A stretch of DNA of 64,000 nt, taken from the NCBI RefSeq assembly GCF_002563855.1, contig NZ_PDJQ01000001.1:1364001-1428000 (forward strand). The letters run 5' to 3'. The first letter of the stretch is position 1. Every line of letters begins with the position of its first letter. This stretch comes from Tepidiforma thermophila (GTDB lineage Bacteria; Chloroflexota; Dehalococcoidia; Tepidiformales; Tepidiformaceae). The notes below the pieces were generated by a model. That model saw nothing but the letters and a program-made list of their open reading frames with translations, searched no databases and was not told the origin of the DNA. A program made the translations under genes and the position numbers. Below are positions 46,238-51,661 of the stretch, piece by piece.

Positions 46238-47341
46238 GCCACCTCCTGCCCGACCTGCGACCGCAGATACGCCTCGATGAACGGGTCGATTTCGCCATCG
46301 AGCACGGCCGTCGTATCCGTCGTTTCGTACCCCGTCCGCAGGTCCTTCACCAGCTTATACGGATGGAGCACGTAGTTGCGGACCTGGCTCCCGAACGAAA
46401 CGTCAACGTGCTCGCCCTTCAGCCGCGCCTTTTCCTCTTCTTGCCGGTTCAGCTCCAGCTCGAGCAGGCGCGCCTCCAGCACCTTCATCGCGCTCTCCTT
46501 GTTTTGCGCTTGCGACCGCTCGTTCTGGCACGTCACCACAATCCCCGTCGGGATATGCGTGATGCGCACCGCCGTCGAGTTCTTCTGCACGTTCTGGCCG
46601 CCGGCTCCGCTCGAGCGGAAGACGTCAATCTTCAGGTCGTCAGGGTTAATCTCGATTTCGCCAACCTCGTCCACCTCCGGCATCACCTCGACCTTCGCAA
46701 AGCTGGTCTGCCGCGTCGCCGCTGAGTTGAACGGCGAAAGCCGCACCAGCCGGTGGACGCCGCGCTCGCTCTTCAGGTAGCCGTAGGCGTACGGCCCGCG
46801 AACTTCGATCGTCGCGCTCTTAATGCCAGCCTCTTCGCCCTCCGTCAGGTCGAGAATCTCGGTCTCAAACCCCTTCCGCTCAGCCCAGCGCAGGTACATC
46901 CGCAGCAGCATCTCGGCCCAGTCCTGCGAATCGGTCCCGCCTGCGCCGGCGTGCACCGCCAGGATGGCGTTCCGCATGTCGTACGGCCCGGAGAGCTGCA
47001 GCTGAAACTCGAGCCGCCGGAGCTCCGCCTCGATGGCGTCGAGCTCGTGCCGCACCTCCTCGGCCGTCTGCTCGTCGTCCTCCGCTGCAGCCAGTTCAAG
47101 CAGCTCACCCGCCTCACGGGCGCGCCGCTCCAGCCCGCGCCATGTCTCCACCCGATCACGCCGGGCCGCCAGCTCCTGCATCACCTTCCGCGCAGCCGCT
47201 GCGTCGTCCCAAAAGCCGGGTGCGAAGGTCTGCTGTTCGAGTTCTGCTACGCGAGCTTCATCCCTGGCGATGTCAAAGACGCACCAGGAGGTCAGAGATC
47301 CGGTCCGAGAGCTCGCGCGCGCGTGCCTGCAGTTCGTTCAT
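46234..47341 (-). CDS. prfB: Peptide chain release factor 2, with programmed +1 frameshift
   Basis: Recognises UGA and UAA and releases the peptide. Translation starts at ATG 47341 (GGAGG upstream), reads 22 codons to CTT-TGA-C and must shift +1 at the TGA (47275-47273) to continue for 346 codons, giving 368 residues, normal for RF2. The tripeptide-like SPF in GVHRLVRLSPF and the catalytic GGQ in RSSGAGGQNVQK are both present, which separates it from RF1. Followed by the peptidase gene with overlapping start; preceded by pgsA 44 bp upstream. Confidence 0.97.
47272..47278 (-). other. prfB frameshift site CTT-TGA-C
   Basis: The classic slippery CTT followed by in-frame TGA and C. GGTG lies three bases before CTT, where the internal Shine-Dalgarno element should act; it matches the GGTG part of AAGGAGGTGA, weaker than the AGGGGG of E. 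coli. Confidence 0.9.
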
Positions 47342-47385: not shown

Positions 47386-47976
47386 TCAGCCGCGCTCGTC
47401 CCGGAACGCCCGCGCCAGCATCCACGCTCGCTGCAGCGCTGTCAGGTTCGAAAGCACGGCAAGGACCGCTACCGCAGCCGTCAGCCAGCCCAGCACGAGC
47501 CCCAGCCCCAGCACTGCCACGCGCTCCTGCCGGCGGAACAGGCCCTCCCGCATGGGGACGCCGGCCACCTCCGCCCGCGCCCGCAGGTAACTCACCGATA
47601 CGCTCCCAAGGAGCGCCGCAAAGCAGGCTGCCGTCTGCCACTGCTCACCGCGTTCCGAGAAGTACCACGCGCAGGCCGCCAGCACCACCGCCTCGCTCGC
47701 CCGGTCGAGCACCGCATCGAACACCGCCCCGAACGGGCTCGCCTTCCCCGTCGCCCGCGCCACCGCCCCGTCCACCAGGTCCAGCGCCGAAAACAGCAGG
47801 TAGACCAGCCCCGCGGCCAGCAGCTCCCCCCGCGCAACCAGTATCGCCGCAGCGACGTTCCCCCCGGCGCCCGCCAGCGAAATCATGTTCGGGGTAATCC
47901 CGAGCCCTCCGACCGAGCGGCCGATTACATCCTGCACGCCCTTCGGGAGCCGCGTCGGCAGTAGCGTCACGCCCAT
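47386..47976 (-). CDS. CDP-alcohol phosphatidyltransferase (PIP-synthase/PgsA-like)
   Basis: A 196-residue integral membrane enzyme. The family motif D-x2-D-G-x2-A-R-x8-G-x3-D-x3-D is complete (starting DLVDGAVAR). Five or six hydrophobic helices surround it. Next to a PimA-like glycosyltransferase and LpxL-like acyltransferases the likely product is phosphatidylinositol phosphate or a related lipid; phosphatidylglycerol phosphate is the alternative. ATG 47976 overlaps the stop of the upstream gene by one base (TGATG). Confidence 0.87.
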   Translation of the reverse strand: MGVTLLPTRLPKGVQDVIGRSVGGLGITPNMISLAGAGGNVAAAILVARGELLAAGLVYLLFSALDLVDGAVARATGKASPFGAVFDAVLDRASEAVVLAACAWYFSERGEQWQTAACFAALLGSVSVSYLRARAEVAGVPMREGLFRRQERVAVLGLGLVLGWLTAAVAVLAVLSNLTALQRAWMLARAFRDERG

Positions 47977-49130
47977 CAGCGGCCCGACCCTGCCAGCGCA
48001 GCCCGCCGCGCCCGCGTCTCCGCCACCTGCTGCCGCTCGTAGAGCAGCCGCTCGTAGTACGACATCACCCGGTGGGCGACGTTGTCCCAGCTGTAGTGCC
48101 GCGCCAGCTCCCGACCCCGCGCGCCGAACGTCTCCCGCAGCCCCGGGTTCCGCAGCAGCCGGAGCACCGCGGCCGCGATGGCGTCCGGGTCCTTCGGGCG
48201 TACCAGCAGTCCCTCCACCTCGTTCGTCATCACACCGGCGAACCCCTCGATGTTGCTCGCCACCACTGCGTCGCCGGCCGCCAGCGCCTCCAGCAGCACA
48301 TACCCCTGGCTCTCGTTCCCCGTGTTGGGCGCGCAGAAAACCGTCGAGCTCTTGTGGTAGCGGGGCAGGTCCGCGTACGGCACGTTCGGCCGGAACACGA
48401 CGTCTGGGAACGGCGCCATCACCCGCTCGTACCGCGAAAAATCGCCCGCCCCGACCACAATCAGCCGTGTGTTCGGCTCCTGCTGCCGGATCCGCAGATA
48501 CGCCTTCAGCAGGTACTTGAGCCCCTTCCGCTTCTCCGGCCGCCCCACGAACAGGATGTTCTTCCGGCCGTCCATAAACTCCGGGAACGGCTCCGCCGGC
48601 CCGGCGAAGTGCTCGTAATCGATCCCGTTCGGGATGATGTTGAAGTACCCCGGGAAGTACCGGCTCACCAGCTTCGCCGCCGCCGGCGAAACCGCAATCT
48701 TCCCCTCGATTTTCCGGAACCACCGCCGCGTCAGCGGCGTCGTGTACCCGTAGAACCGATTGCCGCCCTCCTTCGCCGCATGGAACGTGCCCACAGTCAC
48801 CGCGTGCGAGTGCCGCAAGAAGTAGTACGGAAGCAGCGGCATGAGCGGCTCATGCAGGTGCACCACATCGAACCGGTGCTCCTGCAGCACCCGCTTCACC
48901 TCTGGCGACTTCCATGCAAACGTGATCCGCGCAACGGAACCGCTGACCCGCATCGAAAACGGCCGCCCCATCACGTGGACCTCGTCCCGTACCCGCTCCG
49001 CGTCGGAGGCTGGCGCGAAGATCACCACCTCGTGTCCCCACGAACGGAACGACGCCGCAAGGTGCCGGATATGCGTCTTTACCCCGCCCTCGACGCACCA
49101 GTCATACGGGCTCACCAGCGCAATCTTCAC
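47976..49130 (-). CDS. GT4 glycosyltransferase, PimA-like
   Basis: A 384-residue GT-B enzyme. KIALVSPYDWCVEGGVKTHI is the acceptor-side glycine-rich loop of PimA-like proteins; the donor side has LFVGRPEKRKGLKYLL and the E-x7-E motif in NESQGYVLLEALAAG. In actinobacteria PimA adds mannose from GDP-Man to phosphatidylinositol. The neighbours (pgsA-like and acyltransferases) make that role plausible here but not proven. GTG 49130 chosen for similarity and a 4-bp overlap with the PHP gene. Confidence 0.88.
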   Translation of the reverse strand: MKIALVSPYDWCVEGGVKTHIRHLAASFRSWGHEVVIFAPASDAERVRDEVHVMGRPFSMRVSGSVARITFAWKSPEVKRVLQEHRFDVVHLHEPLMPLLPYYFLRHSHAVTVGTFHAAKEGGNRFYGYTTPLTRRWFRKIEGKIAVSPAAAKLVSRYFPGYFNIIPNGIDYEHFAGPAEPFPEFMDGRKNILFVGRPEKRKGLKYLLKAYLRIRQQEPNTRLIVVGAGDFSRYERVMAPFPDVVFRPNVPYADLPRYHKSSTVFCAPNTGNESQGYVLLEALAAGDAVVASNIEGFAGVMTNEVEGLLVRPKDPDAIAAAVLRLLRNPGLRETFGARGRELARHYSWDNVAHRVMSYYERLLYERQQVAETRARRAALAGSGR

Positions 49131-49849
49131 CGGCGCCCTCCCAGCATCCGCACCACCTTGCGCGGCGTCGCCGTATAGCCCCACGCCAGCCCGAGCGCCA
49201 GCCGCCCGGCAGGCACCGCCGGTGGCGGACGCATCACCGCCCGCGTCTCTCCTGCCGCGATCGCCTGCCGCAGCTCCTCAGCCGTCCGCCCGGCAAATTC
49301 CGTCCACGCGCTGCCTACGTGCTCGAGGTGGTGCGCATCCGAGCTCCCCGTCGCCGGCAAACGCCACAGCTCCGCATTCAGCCGGGCAGCCTTCGCCCCT
49401 GTCCGCACGCCTGCCGGGCTCGGGTTCGCCAGCTCAATCGCATCAAAGTGCACCCCTGCTTCGCCCCGCGCCCACAGGCTGTCGAGCGTCCGCCGGCCGA
49501 CCGACCGCGTCAGCCAGCTCAGCGGATGCGGCGCAATGGCGATACCGCCCGCGTCATGGATCATCGCGAGCGTCGATTCTACCCCCCGGAAGCTTGGCAG
49601 GTCCCGCTCCACAAAGAGCGCCAGCACATGGCCCTGCAGCGTCGTAATCTCCGCACCCGGGATGACCTCGAACCGGTAGCCCCGCCGGGCGGCCAGCTCG
49701 CGCGCCCGCAGGCCGCCGCGGACGTCCTCGTGGTCTGTCACGGCAATGACATCGAGGTCCGTCGCATGCTCGACCCACTCCAGCAGCTGCTCGATCGACG
49801 CGAAGCCGTCGCTGACACGGGAGTGCAGGTGGAGGTCAGCCTTCCCCAC
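49127..49849 (-). CDS. PHP-domain phosphoesterase
   Basis: A 240-residue protein with the metal motifs KADLHLHSRVSDG (residues 3-15), AVTDHEDVRG, PGAEITTLQGHVLAL, APHPLSW and TGSSDAHHLEHVG. Similar stand-alone PHP proteins hydrolyse nucleotides or small phosphate esters. Placed inside a phospholipid-glycosylation run, it may dephosphorylate an intermediate such as a PI-phosphate; this is only a guess from position. GTG 49849 has GGAGGGTG upstream and overlaps the acyltransferase end by 14 bp. Confidence 0.82.
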   Translation of the reverse strand: MGKADLHLHSRVSDGFASIEQLLEWVEHATDLDVIAVTDHEDVRGGLRARELAARRGYRFEVIPGAEITTLQGHVLALFVERDLPSFRGVESTLAMIHDAGGIAIAPHPLSWLTRSVGRRTLDSLWARGEAGVHFDAIELANPSPAGVRTGAKAARLNAELWRLPATGSSDAHHLEHVGSAWTEFAGRTAEELRQAIAAGETRAVMRPPPAVPAGRLALGLAWGYTATPRKVVRMLGGRR

Positions 49850-50711
49850 AGGCGTGCACCCTCCAAAAGTCTTCCAGCACGGCCCACTGGCCCGGGTCGC
49901 GCCGCAGGTGCCGCTCCAGCAGGCCCGCAAACCGCTCCGCCGCTTCCCGGATGTCGGCCTCCGCGTCGCTGGTCTCCGCCACCCGGAACGGCTCCTCGAC
50001 GTCGATACGGAACTGATCCCCGCGCTTCCGGCTCGAAAAAATCGGAAGAACAATCGCGCCGGTCCTCCGCGCAAGCTCCCACGGCCCACGCGGCAGCTTC
50101 ACCGGCCGCTCGAACAGCCGAACACAGACCCCCGTGTGCTGGATATCGCGGTCGCCCATCACCCCTACCACTCCCCCGTTCCGCAGCGTTTCGATGCAGG
50201 CCCGCACACCCCCGAAACCCGCCTCGAGAAACGTCCCCCCGGCTGAAGACCGCAGCTTCAACATATACTCCGCCCAGTCCCGCGGCTCCAGCCGCTCCAC
50301 CAGCGCGACGAACGACCGCCCCCGGTACGTCAGCGCCTGGATCGCCAGCTCGGCGTTTCCCGTATGTGCGCTGACGAGCAGCACCGGCTCGCCGCTCCGC
50401 AGCAGTTCCAGCCGCTGCCCGTGAAAAATCTCCAGGTGCTCCGCTTCAAACCGCGACATATCCCGGTGCGGCAGGGTCGCCAGGTCGAGGAAGTAGGCCT
50501 GCACATGCGTCAGCGCCCGCCGGGCCTCCCGCCGCGCCCGCCGCGGGTCCCCGTCGCAGAGCGGCAGCATGTTCCGGATGACCCTCCGTCGCGTCGCAGG
50601 GCTCGCGTGCCACACTGCCCACCCAACCACCGGCGCAAGCGGATAGGCGACTCCCGGTACTCTCCCGGCAGTCTGCGCCGCCACGCGCATCATCAGCGCC
50701 CTCAGGCTCAC
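49836..50711 (-). CDS. LpxL/HtrB-family lipid acyltransferase (PatA-like), second copy
   Basis: A 291-residue membrane-associated acyltransferase. The catalytic H-x4-E is in SAHTGNAELAIQ, GVMGDRDIQHTG is the second block and VLPIFSSRKRGDQFRI the third. The family acylates lipid A in Gram-negatives and PI-mannosides (PatA) in actinobacteria; no lipid A genes are near. The GTG at 50711 overlaps the preceding stop by 4 bp. Confidence 0.87.
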   Translation of the reverse strand: MSLRALMMRVAAQTAGRVPGVAYPLAPVVGWAVWHASPATRRRVIRNMLPLCDGDPRRARREARRALTHVQAYFLDLATLPHRDMSRFEAEHLEIFHGQRLELLRSGEPVLLVSAHTGNAELAIQALTYRGRSFVALVERLEPRDWAEYMLKLRSSAGGTFLEAGFGGVRACIETLRNGGVVGVMGDRDIQHTGVCVRLFERPVKLPRGPWELARRTGAIVLPIFSSRKRGDQFRIDVEEPFRVAETSDAEADIREAAERFAGLLERHLRRDPGQWAVLEDFWRVHACGEG

Positions 50712-51661
50712 GCCCCCGTCGCTCCTGCCGCGGCTTCGCGCCGCCAGAACGCACGGAACATGTACCACTGCTCCGGCCGCTCCCGGATGAACGACTCATG
50801 CACCCGCATCACCTGCTGCGTCAGCGCCCGGACGCACTCCGGCCGCGCCTCATCGCAGGGGACGATTGAAAAGTCGCCCACGACTTCCATCCGCTCCCCG
50901 TTCGCGTCCAGCCGCCGGAATGCAACCGGCACGAGCGCTGCCCCCGTCGCCAGCGCCAGCCGAGCCGGGCCCGCGGGCACCTCCACCGTCTCGCCGAAGA
51001 ACTCCACCTCCACCCCTTCACCCGGCACCGGCCGGTCGATGAGCAGCGCCAAAAGCCCGTTCCGCTTCAGCACGCGCACCATCGACGGCCCCGCCCGCTC
51101 CGCCCGGATCACCTGCATGCCCAGCCGCTCCCGCGTCCCAAGCACCAGCGCGTCGAGCCGCGGGTCGCCGAAACCCTCGGCCACGACCGTAAGCGGGTAG
51201 CCCCTCGACGCCGCGAAGGCCGCCCCGGCGTCCCAGTTACCATAATGCATGCAGACGATGACAGCTCCCCGTCCGCGCTCCAGCAGCCGGTCGAGCGCCG
51301 CAAAGGCCCGTTCCCCCTCAACCCGCGGAAGCCGCGCGGCCCCGTTTCCCAGCCGCATGAAGTCGACCAGGTAACGGAAATACGCGGCCAGCGATGCCCG
51401 CGCTACCCGGTCGACCAGCCCGCCCTCGGCCGTGCCGAGCACCCGGGCAAAATTTCCCCGCATCGCCCGCCGGCCCCGCGGCCAGAGCCAGTACGCAGCG
51501 TGGCCCAGCCCGCTGGCAATCCGGTATGCCGCAGGCGCCGGCGTCCGCCCAATCGTCGCCTGTGCCGCCCGCCAGCCCCAGTACTGCAGCGCACCCCCAC
51601 CTGGCCGCGCCACCCGCTGCGGAAGCTCACGCGCACGTTCCGTCCCCGGTGAAATTCCCAT
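50708..51661 (-). CDS. LpxL/HtrB-family lipid acyltransferase (PatA-like), first copy
   Basis: A 317-residue relative of the next gene, with H-x4-D in CMHYGNWDAGAAF, LLALLIDRPVPGEGVEVEFFG and VPVAFRRLDANGERMEVVG. The two copies share layout but are well diverged, so they probably acylate different positions. It begins a minus-strand run of at least seven coupled genes reaching 44828. ATG 51661 follows TACACT by 7 nt, consistent with a leaderless operon start. Confidence 0.87.
   Translation of the reverse strand: MGISPGTERARELPQRVARPGGGALQYWGWRAAQATIGRTPAPAAYRIASGLGHAAYWLWPRGRRAMRGNFARVLGTAEGGLVDRVARASLAAYFRYLVDFMRLGNGAARLPRVEGERAFAALDRLLERGRGAVIVCMHYGNWDAGAAFAASRGYPLTVVAEGFGDPRLDALVLGTRERLGMQVIRAERAGPSMVRVLKRNGLLALLIDRPVPGEGVEVEFFGETVEVPAGPARLALATGAALVPVAFRRLDANGERMEVVGDFSIVPCDEARPECVRALTQQVMRVHESFIRERPEQWYMFRAFWRREAAAGATGA

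Follow-up and report, generated by a model that had tools for sequence, protein, structure and literature searches.

A five-gene operon of Tepidiforma thermophila, a hot-spring member of the class Dehalococcoidia in the phylum Chloroflexota, probably makes acylated phosphatidylinositol (PI) glycosides of the mycobacterial PI-mannoside (PIM) kind, judging by the sequences of its products. PI-mannosides are regarded as a hallmark of the actinobacteria. The operon lies within a window of 64,000 nucleotides (C1:1364001-1428000) of a genome that consists of a single contig (C1) of 2,743,337 bases; coordinates without the prefix C1 are window positions. Its five genes occupy positions 47386-51661 on the minus strand and, in the window sequence and its translations, each overlaps the next by 1-14 bases, with gene starts picked by eye. 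The original prediction, made from the sequence alone, described five coupled genes for two PatA/LpxL-like acyltransferases, a PHP phosphoesterase, a PimA-like GT4 glycosyltransferase and a CDP-alcohol phosphatidyltransferase, and positions, strand, overlaps, and profile matches all agree with it. Its wider claim of a PI-mannoside-like gene set outside the actinobacteria is supported by the substrate residues of the phosphatidyltransferase, the GT4 tree, and the presence of the inositol-phosphate synthase INO1 in the genome.

The phosphatidyltransferase is of the PIP-synthase type

The CDP-alcohol phosphatidyltransferase (47386-47976, minus strand; 196 amino acids; Pfam CDP-OH_P_transf, 8.9e-13) is of the phosphatidylinositol phosphate (PIP) synthase (PIPS) type and not a phosphatidylglycerophosphate (PGP) synthase, as indicated by its best-scoring family, its closest structure, and its inositol-phosphate residues. 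The protein scored 120.1 bits with the NCBIfam model PIPSynth, followed by archaetidylinositol phosphate synthase with 117.6 bits, and no PGP synthase model was among its seven matches at E 0.001. The PIPSynth cut-off of 170 bits was passed in 1/197 class genomes; because the window protein also scores below it, we file the protein as PIPS-like and do not name it an equivalog. Its top match in the PDB was the PIP synthase 6h53 (6e-19), presumably the enzyme of Mycobacterium tuberculosis. Residues D68, D71, D89, D93, R94, S132, R155, and R195 (M. tuberculosis PgsA1 numbering) are all kept, and the CDP-alcohol phosphotransferase (CDP-AP) signature D..DG..AR..G...D...D is found in the window protein and in 111/111 relatives. 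According to two papers on PIP synthase, R155 and R195 bind the phosphate of inositol phosphate with the assistance of S132, and R94 is conserved in enzymes using inositol phosphate (PMC4634129, PMC6506517). All 111 PIPS sequences compared from Chloroflexota have R94 and R155, while S132 and R195 are each present in 109, the remaining two showing gaps at R195.

The glycosyltransferase groups with PimA

The adjoining GT4 gene (47976-49130, minus strand; 384 amino acids; Glycos_transf_1, 3.5e-31) was predicted to be PimA-like, and both structure matches and phylogeny agree. In the PDB the protein matched PimA (4n9w) at 3.8e-54 and the next structure at 3.2e-16; with a profile of 11 orthologues these values were 1.6e-86 and 2.6e-39. 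A tree of 124 sequences separated 116 of them, namely 115 Chloroflexota sequences (including the window GT4 and its paralogue L003) and M. smegmatis PimA, with a support of 100 from eight other GT4s, which were MshA, one sucrose-phosphate-synthase-like enzyme, and six other GT4s of Tepidiforma. Residues H117, R197, K202, E273, and E281 are invariant in the 11 orthologues; they correspond to the catalytic residues of PimA, namely a histidine following a TF motif, the arginine and lysine of GR..RKG, and the two glutamates of E-x7-E. A first GT4 tree was rejected, in which midpoint rooting and very divergent paralogues set a long-branch GT4 of the same genome beside PimA with a support of 0.03, and six GT4s of this genome (L010-L015) were dropped from the second tree for low similarity.

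The window GT4 shares 98% identity with a GT4 encoded in a Tepidiforma metagenome assembly, and 92% with the Tepidiforma flava protein. The Tepidiforma assembly KatS3mg062 holds several copies of the operon GT4 on separate contigs (L022, L023, L034, and L036; 92-98% identical to the window GT4), which suggests a strain mixture. The genome of the window also has a second PimA-like GT4 away from the operon (C1:515940-517241, minus strand), 50% identical to the first (C1:515961-517055); it is a candidate for a second sugar transfer, as a putative second mannosyltransferase.

Two acyltransferases separated by an old duplication

The first gene of the operon (50708-51661, minus strand; 317 amino acids; Pfam Lip_A_acyltrans, 1.7e-34) and the second (49836-50711, minus strand; 291 amino acids; Lip_A_acyltrans, 2e-24) both encode PatA-type acyltransferases, which are 26% identical to each other. 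PI-mannoside acyltransferase was the best NCBIfam family for both, with 173 and 103 bits, respectively; as these scores are below the curated cut-off of 209 bits, we file both proteins as PatA-like. The best PDB match of acyltransferase 1 was PatA (5oce, 3.4e-26), with lipid A lauroyl acyltransferase at just 2.8e-06, and acyltransferase 2 matched PatA only (2.7e-13) at E 0.001. In a tree of the acyltransferases from two-copy loci and the window, the best split parted 44/44 first genes from 44/44 second genes (support 0.952), which dates the doubling as old. PatA fell on the first-gene side, and 13/22 single acyltransferases fell on the second-gene side. The two proteins are thus, by their phylogeny, old separate paralogues, and probably act on different targets.

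The H-x4-D/E motif of PatA has its histidine in 110/110 acyltransferases and its acidic residue in 44/44 first, 38/44 second, and 22/22 single genes; the six second-gene proteins lacking it carry S, F, or others at that position, and both window proteins have the motif. The acidic partner position is Asp in 110/110 Chloroflexota proteins versus Glu in PatA, where it is presumably the Glu of AERD that plays this part. To our knowledge the enzyme of the second PIM acylation is unassigned in mycobacteria, which makes acyltransferase 2 (PatA2) a natural candidate for this step. The first acylation has an enzyme there, as Rv2611c acylates mannose (PMC3229680).

The PHP protein follows the acyltransferases

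The middle gene (49127-49849, minus strand; 240 amino acids; PHP_C, 5.6e-14) encodes a PHP-family metal-dependent phosphoesterase, for which the PHP domain itself scored 24.9 bits, just below its cut-off of 26.4. The metal-binding segments HxH, TDH, GxE, PHP, and SDAH show no variation across 12 aligned orthologues. A structural model (pLDDT 87) had PHP phosphoesterases as its best fold matches, with Z scores of 19.7 (2.6 A over 192 residues) and 19.4, a common fold that says nothing on the substrate; the fold matches listed did not include a named PIP phosphatase, which excludes nothing.

The pathway requires one phosphatase step, from PIP to PI. The PIP phosphatase of mycobacteria is unassigned as far as we know, and PgpA was found in 4/197 class genomes and not in the other 193. 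The PHP gene is present in 36 of the 76 class loci with PIPS, and hence does not occur wherever PIPS does. In class loci with the GT4 and at least 4 kb of upstream sequence it was found in 27/28 with an acyltransferase and in 4/33 without; the corresponding counts outside the class were 16/28 and 0/7. The gene thus tracks the acyltransferases and not PIPS, which weakens the case for a PIP phosphatase, and we regard the PHP protein as a tentative candidate for the removal of phosphate from PIP, more doubtful than probable.

Versions of the operon are widespread in Dehalococcoidia and beyond

We inspected 80 loci of the class, 20 from a list of GT4 matches (the window's own family supplied eight) and 60 from a list of PIPS matches, mostly one or two per family and selected with the INO1 list already known. 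As several loci are cut off at contig ends, real absences may be fewer than counted. PIPS was present in 76/80 loci and adjoined by the GT4 in 71 of these 76, so the arrangement is not due to chance. INO1 lay upstream on the same strand in 58/76, being of the mycobacterial type in 57 and of a long type in one (L134, with 30 bits in the profile count). The full form INO1-PatA-PatA2-PHP-PimA-PIPS was seen in 14/76 loci. The commonest pattern was INO1-GT4-PIPS (27/76), and eight of the 76 had INO1-AT-PHP-GT4-PIPS (AT, acyltransferase). Four loci were without PIPS; three of them read INO1-AT-AT-PHP-GT4, and in their genomes PIPS was matched at another place.

A GT4 match was found in 250/251 genomes sampled across the phylum (31 of them from the class), for some families with a best E of only ~1e-20, as for ordinary GT4s, and INO1 in 225/251. 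We also inspected 39 loci outside the class, which were partly chosen for proximity of GT4 and INO1 and are not a random sample. The cluster included a mycobacterial-type INO1 in 24 of these and a long-type INO1 in one (L219), and PIPS could stand at either end. Membrane chemistry of the acylated PI-mannoside type is probably long established in a second phylum; the position of PimA within its group of 116 GT4s was poorly supported (62 and 34), and the tree therefore does not separate inheritance from transfer.

INO1 stands outside the operon in Tepidiforma

An inositol-phosphate synthase was sought in the genome and is present (PF01658): a single INO1 of the long type, 506 amino acids, at C1:828446-829966, ~580 kb from the operon. 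Its place outside the operon is the unusual feature of Tepidiforma. The protein is closest to 7nwr (8.7e-171), presumably a Bacteroides INO1, and hardly like the inositol-3-phosphate synthase 1gr0 (2.9e-4), which we take to be the M. tuberculosis enzyme and which the operon-type (mycobacterial-type) INO1 of the class member L098 matches at 9.2e-143. At its N terminus the Tepidiforma INO1 carries a carph-isopro domain (NF046037; 65.9 bits, cut-off 38) with a weak resemblance to Cro (3bd1, 3.8e-4), and it may be a DNA-binding, self-regulating enzyme.

By PF01658, with a positive Corynebacterium control, INO1 was detected in 188/197 class genomes. A count with PF07994 (22/197), by which most of the class would be without INO1, was rejected as an artefact: the Corynebacterium control was silent, showing that this model misses the mycobacterial type. 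The long INO1 of Tepidiforma, used as a tblastn query, likewise misses that type and found INO1 in just 1/43 loci. Some INO1 occurs in all 14 genomes of the window's family (its own included), the long type in 10. Both of the inspected genomes among the four without it (L088 and L089) have a short INO1 heading the operon, and no INO1 was found in the operon of the five inspected relatives with the long type (L084-L087 and L090); in another relative, L101, the operon was absent at the inspected place. Read from present gene positions, one INO1 type seems to have taken the place of the other, which would fit an operon that still needs inositol phosphate. L134 and L219 have a long-type INO1 within the cluster, upstream of the GT4, that shares ~78-80% identity with the Tepidiforma protein; the long INO1 may have entered the operon before being parted from it, or may have entered independently.

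A further pair of inositol-related genes was noted at C1:721254-722599, where a gene resembling inositol-phosphate cytidylyltransferases (best family IPCT/DIPPS, 103.6 bits) adjoins that of an inositol-type phosphotransferase. The latter is the second of the two CDP-alcohol phosphatidyltransferases of Tepidiforma and scored 108.1 bits as archaetidylinositol phosphate synthase and 93 bits as DIPPS. In hyperthermophiles, a cytidylyltransferase and a phosphotransferase of these kinds together make di-myo-inositol phosphate.

A proposed pathway and its alternatives

The comparisons show what the genes encode, that the substrate residues and the operon are conserved, and that INO1 and a mannose-1-phosphate-guanylyltransferase-like gene are present; from this we infer the order of reactions, the sugar, the acyl positions, and the role of the PHP protein as follows. 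The unlinked INO1 would convert glucose 6-phosphate to inositol phosphate, which PIP synthase would join to CDP-diacylglycerol or to its diol-based counterpart. The phosphate would be taken off PIP by a phosphatase, for which the PHP protein is a possible candidate, to give PI. To PI the PimA-type GT4 would attach a hexose, with mannose supplied by GDP-mannose as the most likely one. The sugar would then be acylated by acyltransferase 1 in the manner of PatA, and acyltransferase 2 would add a second acyl chain.

Several points weigh against this proposal. With the NCBIfam models of PIM enzymes, the window proteins score below the curated cut-offs; the second, archaetidylinositol-type CDP-alcohol enzyme also keeps R94, S132, R155, and R195, so these residues cannot alone single out a PIP synthase; and the GT4 tree contained a single actinobacterial PimA and did not include PimB'. 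Many class operons are without both the acyltransferases and PHP, as in the INO1-GT4-PIPS pattern, and their product would be unacylated. The Tepidiforma INO1 could also feed di-inositol phosphate, given the cytidylyltransferase-like gene beside the second CDP-alcohol enzyme. Finally, we found no lipid data for Tepidiforma, and the main text of a Tepidiforma paper (PMC10284905) has no words beginning with 'lipid' or 'inositol'.

Among the alternatives, the one nearest to our proposal is a PI-hexoside with glucose, N-acetylglucosamine, or another hexose in place of mannose. The sugar is not fixed by the GT4 sequence, and the genome encodes other nucleotide-sugar synthases, of the GalU and RmlA types and a GlgC-like one judged by eye. 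We consider another sugar unlikely, as PimA is by far the best solved relative of the GT4 and the best-scoring family of a 337-amino-acid protein (C1:1328003 onward) is the Rv-type mannose-1-phosphate guanylyltransferase (242.6 bits, below the cut-off of 440); the second to fourth PDB matches of this protein are mannose-1-phosphate guanylyltransferases. We infer that the product would be a PI-mannoside rather than another PI-hexoside. Less credible still is that the phosphatidyltransferase is the cell's PGP synthase and that the operon makes glycosylated phosphatidylglycerol (PG): bacteria usually make PG, and PF01066 finds only one enzyme of this kind in 117/197 class genomes, but the inositol-phosphate residues, the lack of PGP synthase models among the matches, the INO1 gene upstream in most class operons, and the rarity of PgpA, a usual PGP phosphatase, speak against it.

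We give an equally slight chance to the idea that INO1 mainly serves the heat-protecting solute di-myo-inositol phosphate, the operon being a relic or acting on something else. The IPCT/DIPPS-like gene beside the second inositol-type phosphotransferase (C1:721254 onward) favors this idea, while the open frames and kept motifs of the five operon genes argue against a relic, and across the class INO1 usually lies within the PIPS operon itself.

PI as a possible sole phosphatidyl head group

We counted matches to PF01066, which was positive in 14/14 control genomes, in the 197 genomes of the class: the model matched once in 117, twice in 61, more often in 11, and not at all in eight, one of the last (G176) being 95% complete. 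These counts are lower bounds, as the PIP-synthase model detects one more enzyme in G077 and in G169, both counted among the 117. For eight genomes from a single family (G013, G049, G068, G098, G124, G135, G146, and G189), a comparison of positions identified the sole match as the PIPS of the operon, and a PG synthase of known family would be missing from genomes of this kind. The absence of PG would not be phylum-wide, since PI is reported together with PG and diphosphatidylglycerol (DPG) in Dictyobacter, another member of the Chloroflexota (PMC12453558). A bolder reading would make acylated PI-mannosides an ancestral Chloroflexota lipid of membrane and envelope, made through one operon INO1-PatA-PatA2-PHP-PimA-PIPS. 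In much of Dehalococcoidia (including the small complete Dehalococcoides- and Dehalogenimonas-like genomes) PI would be the sole phosphatidyl head group derived from CDP-diacylglycerol and PG would be absent, while PatA2 would add a second acyl chain and PHP would act as a new kind of phosphatase in this pathway. Taken as a whole, we regard this reading as improbable but not remote.

Comparison with known inositol lipid systems

In M. tuberculosis, as the original prediction stated for Mycobacterium, the genes for PgsA, an acyltransferase, and PimA lie in a row (Rv2614c-Rv2609c; PMC3229680). The Tepidiforma operon resembles this mycobacterial and corynebacterial arrangement in bringing together a PIP synthase, a PatA-type acyltransferase, and PimA with conserved substrate residues, and INO1 is of the mycobacterial type in most class loci inspected. 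The comparison covers PgsA, the Rv2611c acyltransferase, and PimA; the other three listed ORFs were not searched for, and PimB' was not identified. In contrast to the six ORFs listed in that source, many Chloroflexota operons add INO1, a second PatA paralogue, and PHP. The second acyltransferase and PHP, which had been predicted as additions, are thus absent from the mycobacterial list; they also recur in many Chloroflexota operons and are not peculiar to Tepidiforma.

The inositol lipid cluster of Bacteroides thetaiotaomicron (BT_1522-BT_1526) likewise combines INO1 and PIPS, with PIP as an intermediate, but no GT4 or acyltransferase is mentioned for it in the consulted part of PMC9246714. 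That source describes its PIP phosphatase, BT_1525, as PgpA-like, unlike the 193/197 class genomes in which PgpA was not found.

Our search of the open-licence literature returned nothing on PI mannosides in Thermomicrobia or Chloroflexota or on Tepidiforma polar lipids, and among the papers listed by broader searches none dealt with this operon. Thermomicrobia, another class of the Chloroflexota, are reported to contain PI-mannosides and acyl-mannosides (Lagutin et al., Lipids, 2015), many reportedly with a long-chain diol replacing glycerol, and no gene set is known to be tied to them. If so, the chemistry is not wholly new to the phylum. Within the literature searched, what appears to be new is the operon and how widely it occurs, the exchange of INO1 types, the occurrence of an old second acyltransferase together with PHP, and the prediction of a single head group.

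Just downstream of the operon lies prfB, for release factor 2 (minus strand, 47273-47341 and on to 46234), with an apparent classic programmed frameshift, by eye: an ATG at 47341, an in-frame CTT TGA at codons 22-23, and then the main frame. This is an ordinary feature of the gene.

Bacterial inositol lipids were once thought to be largely limited to Actinobacteria and Spirochaetes, to which Bacteroidetes were then added (PMC9246714). If the operon has the proposed function throughout the Chloroflexota, the trait would have a greater age than has been assumed, or would have been transferred more often, and unusual membranes would be predicted in organohalide-respiring and hot-spring bacteria.

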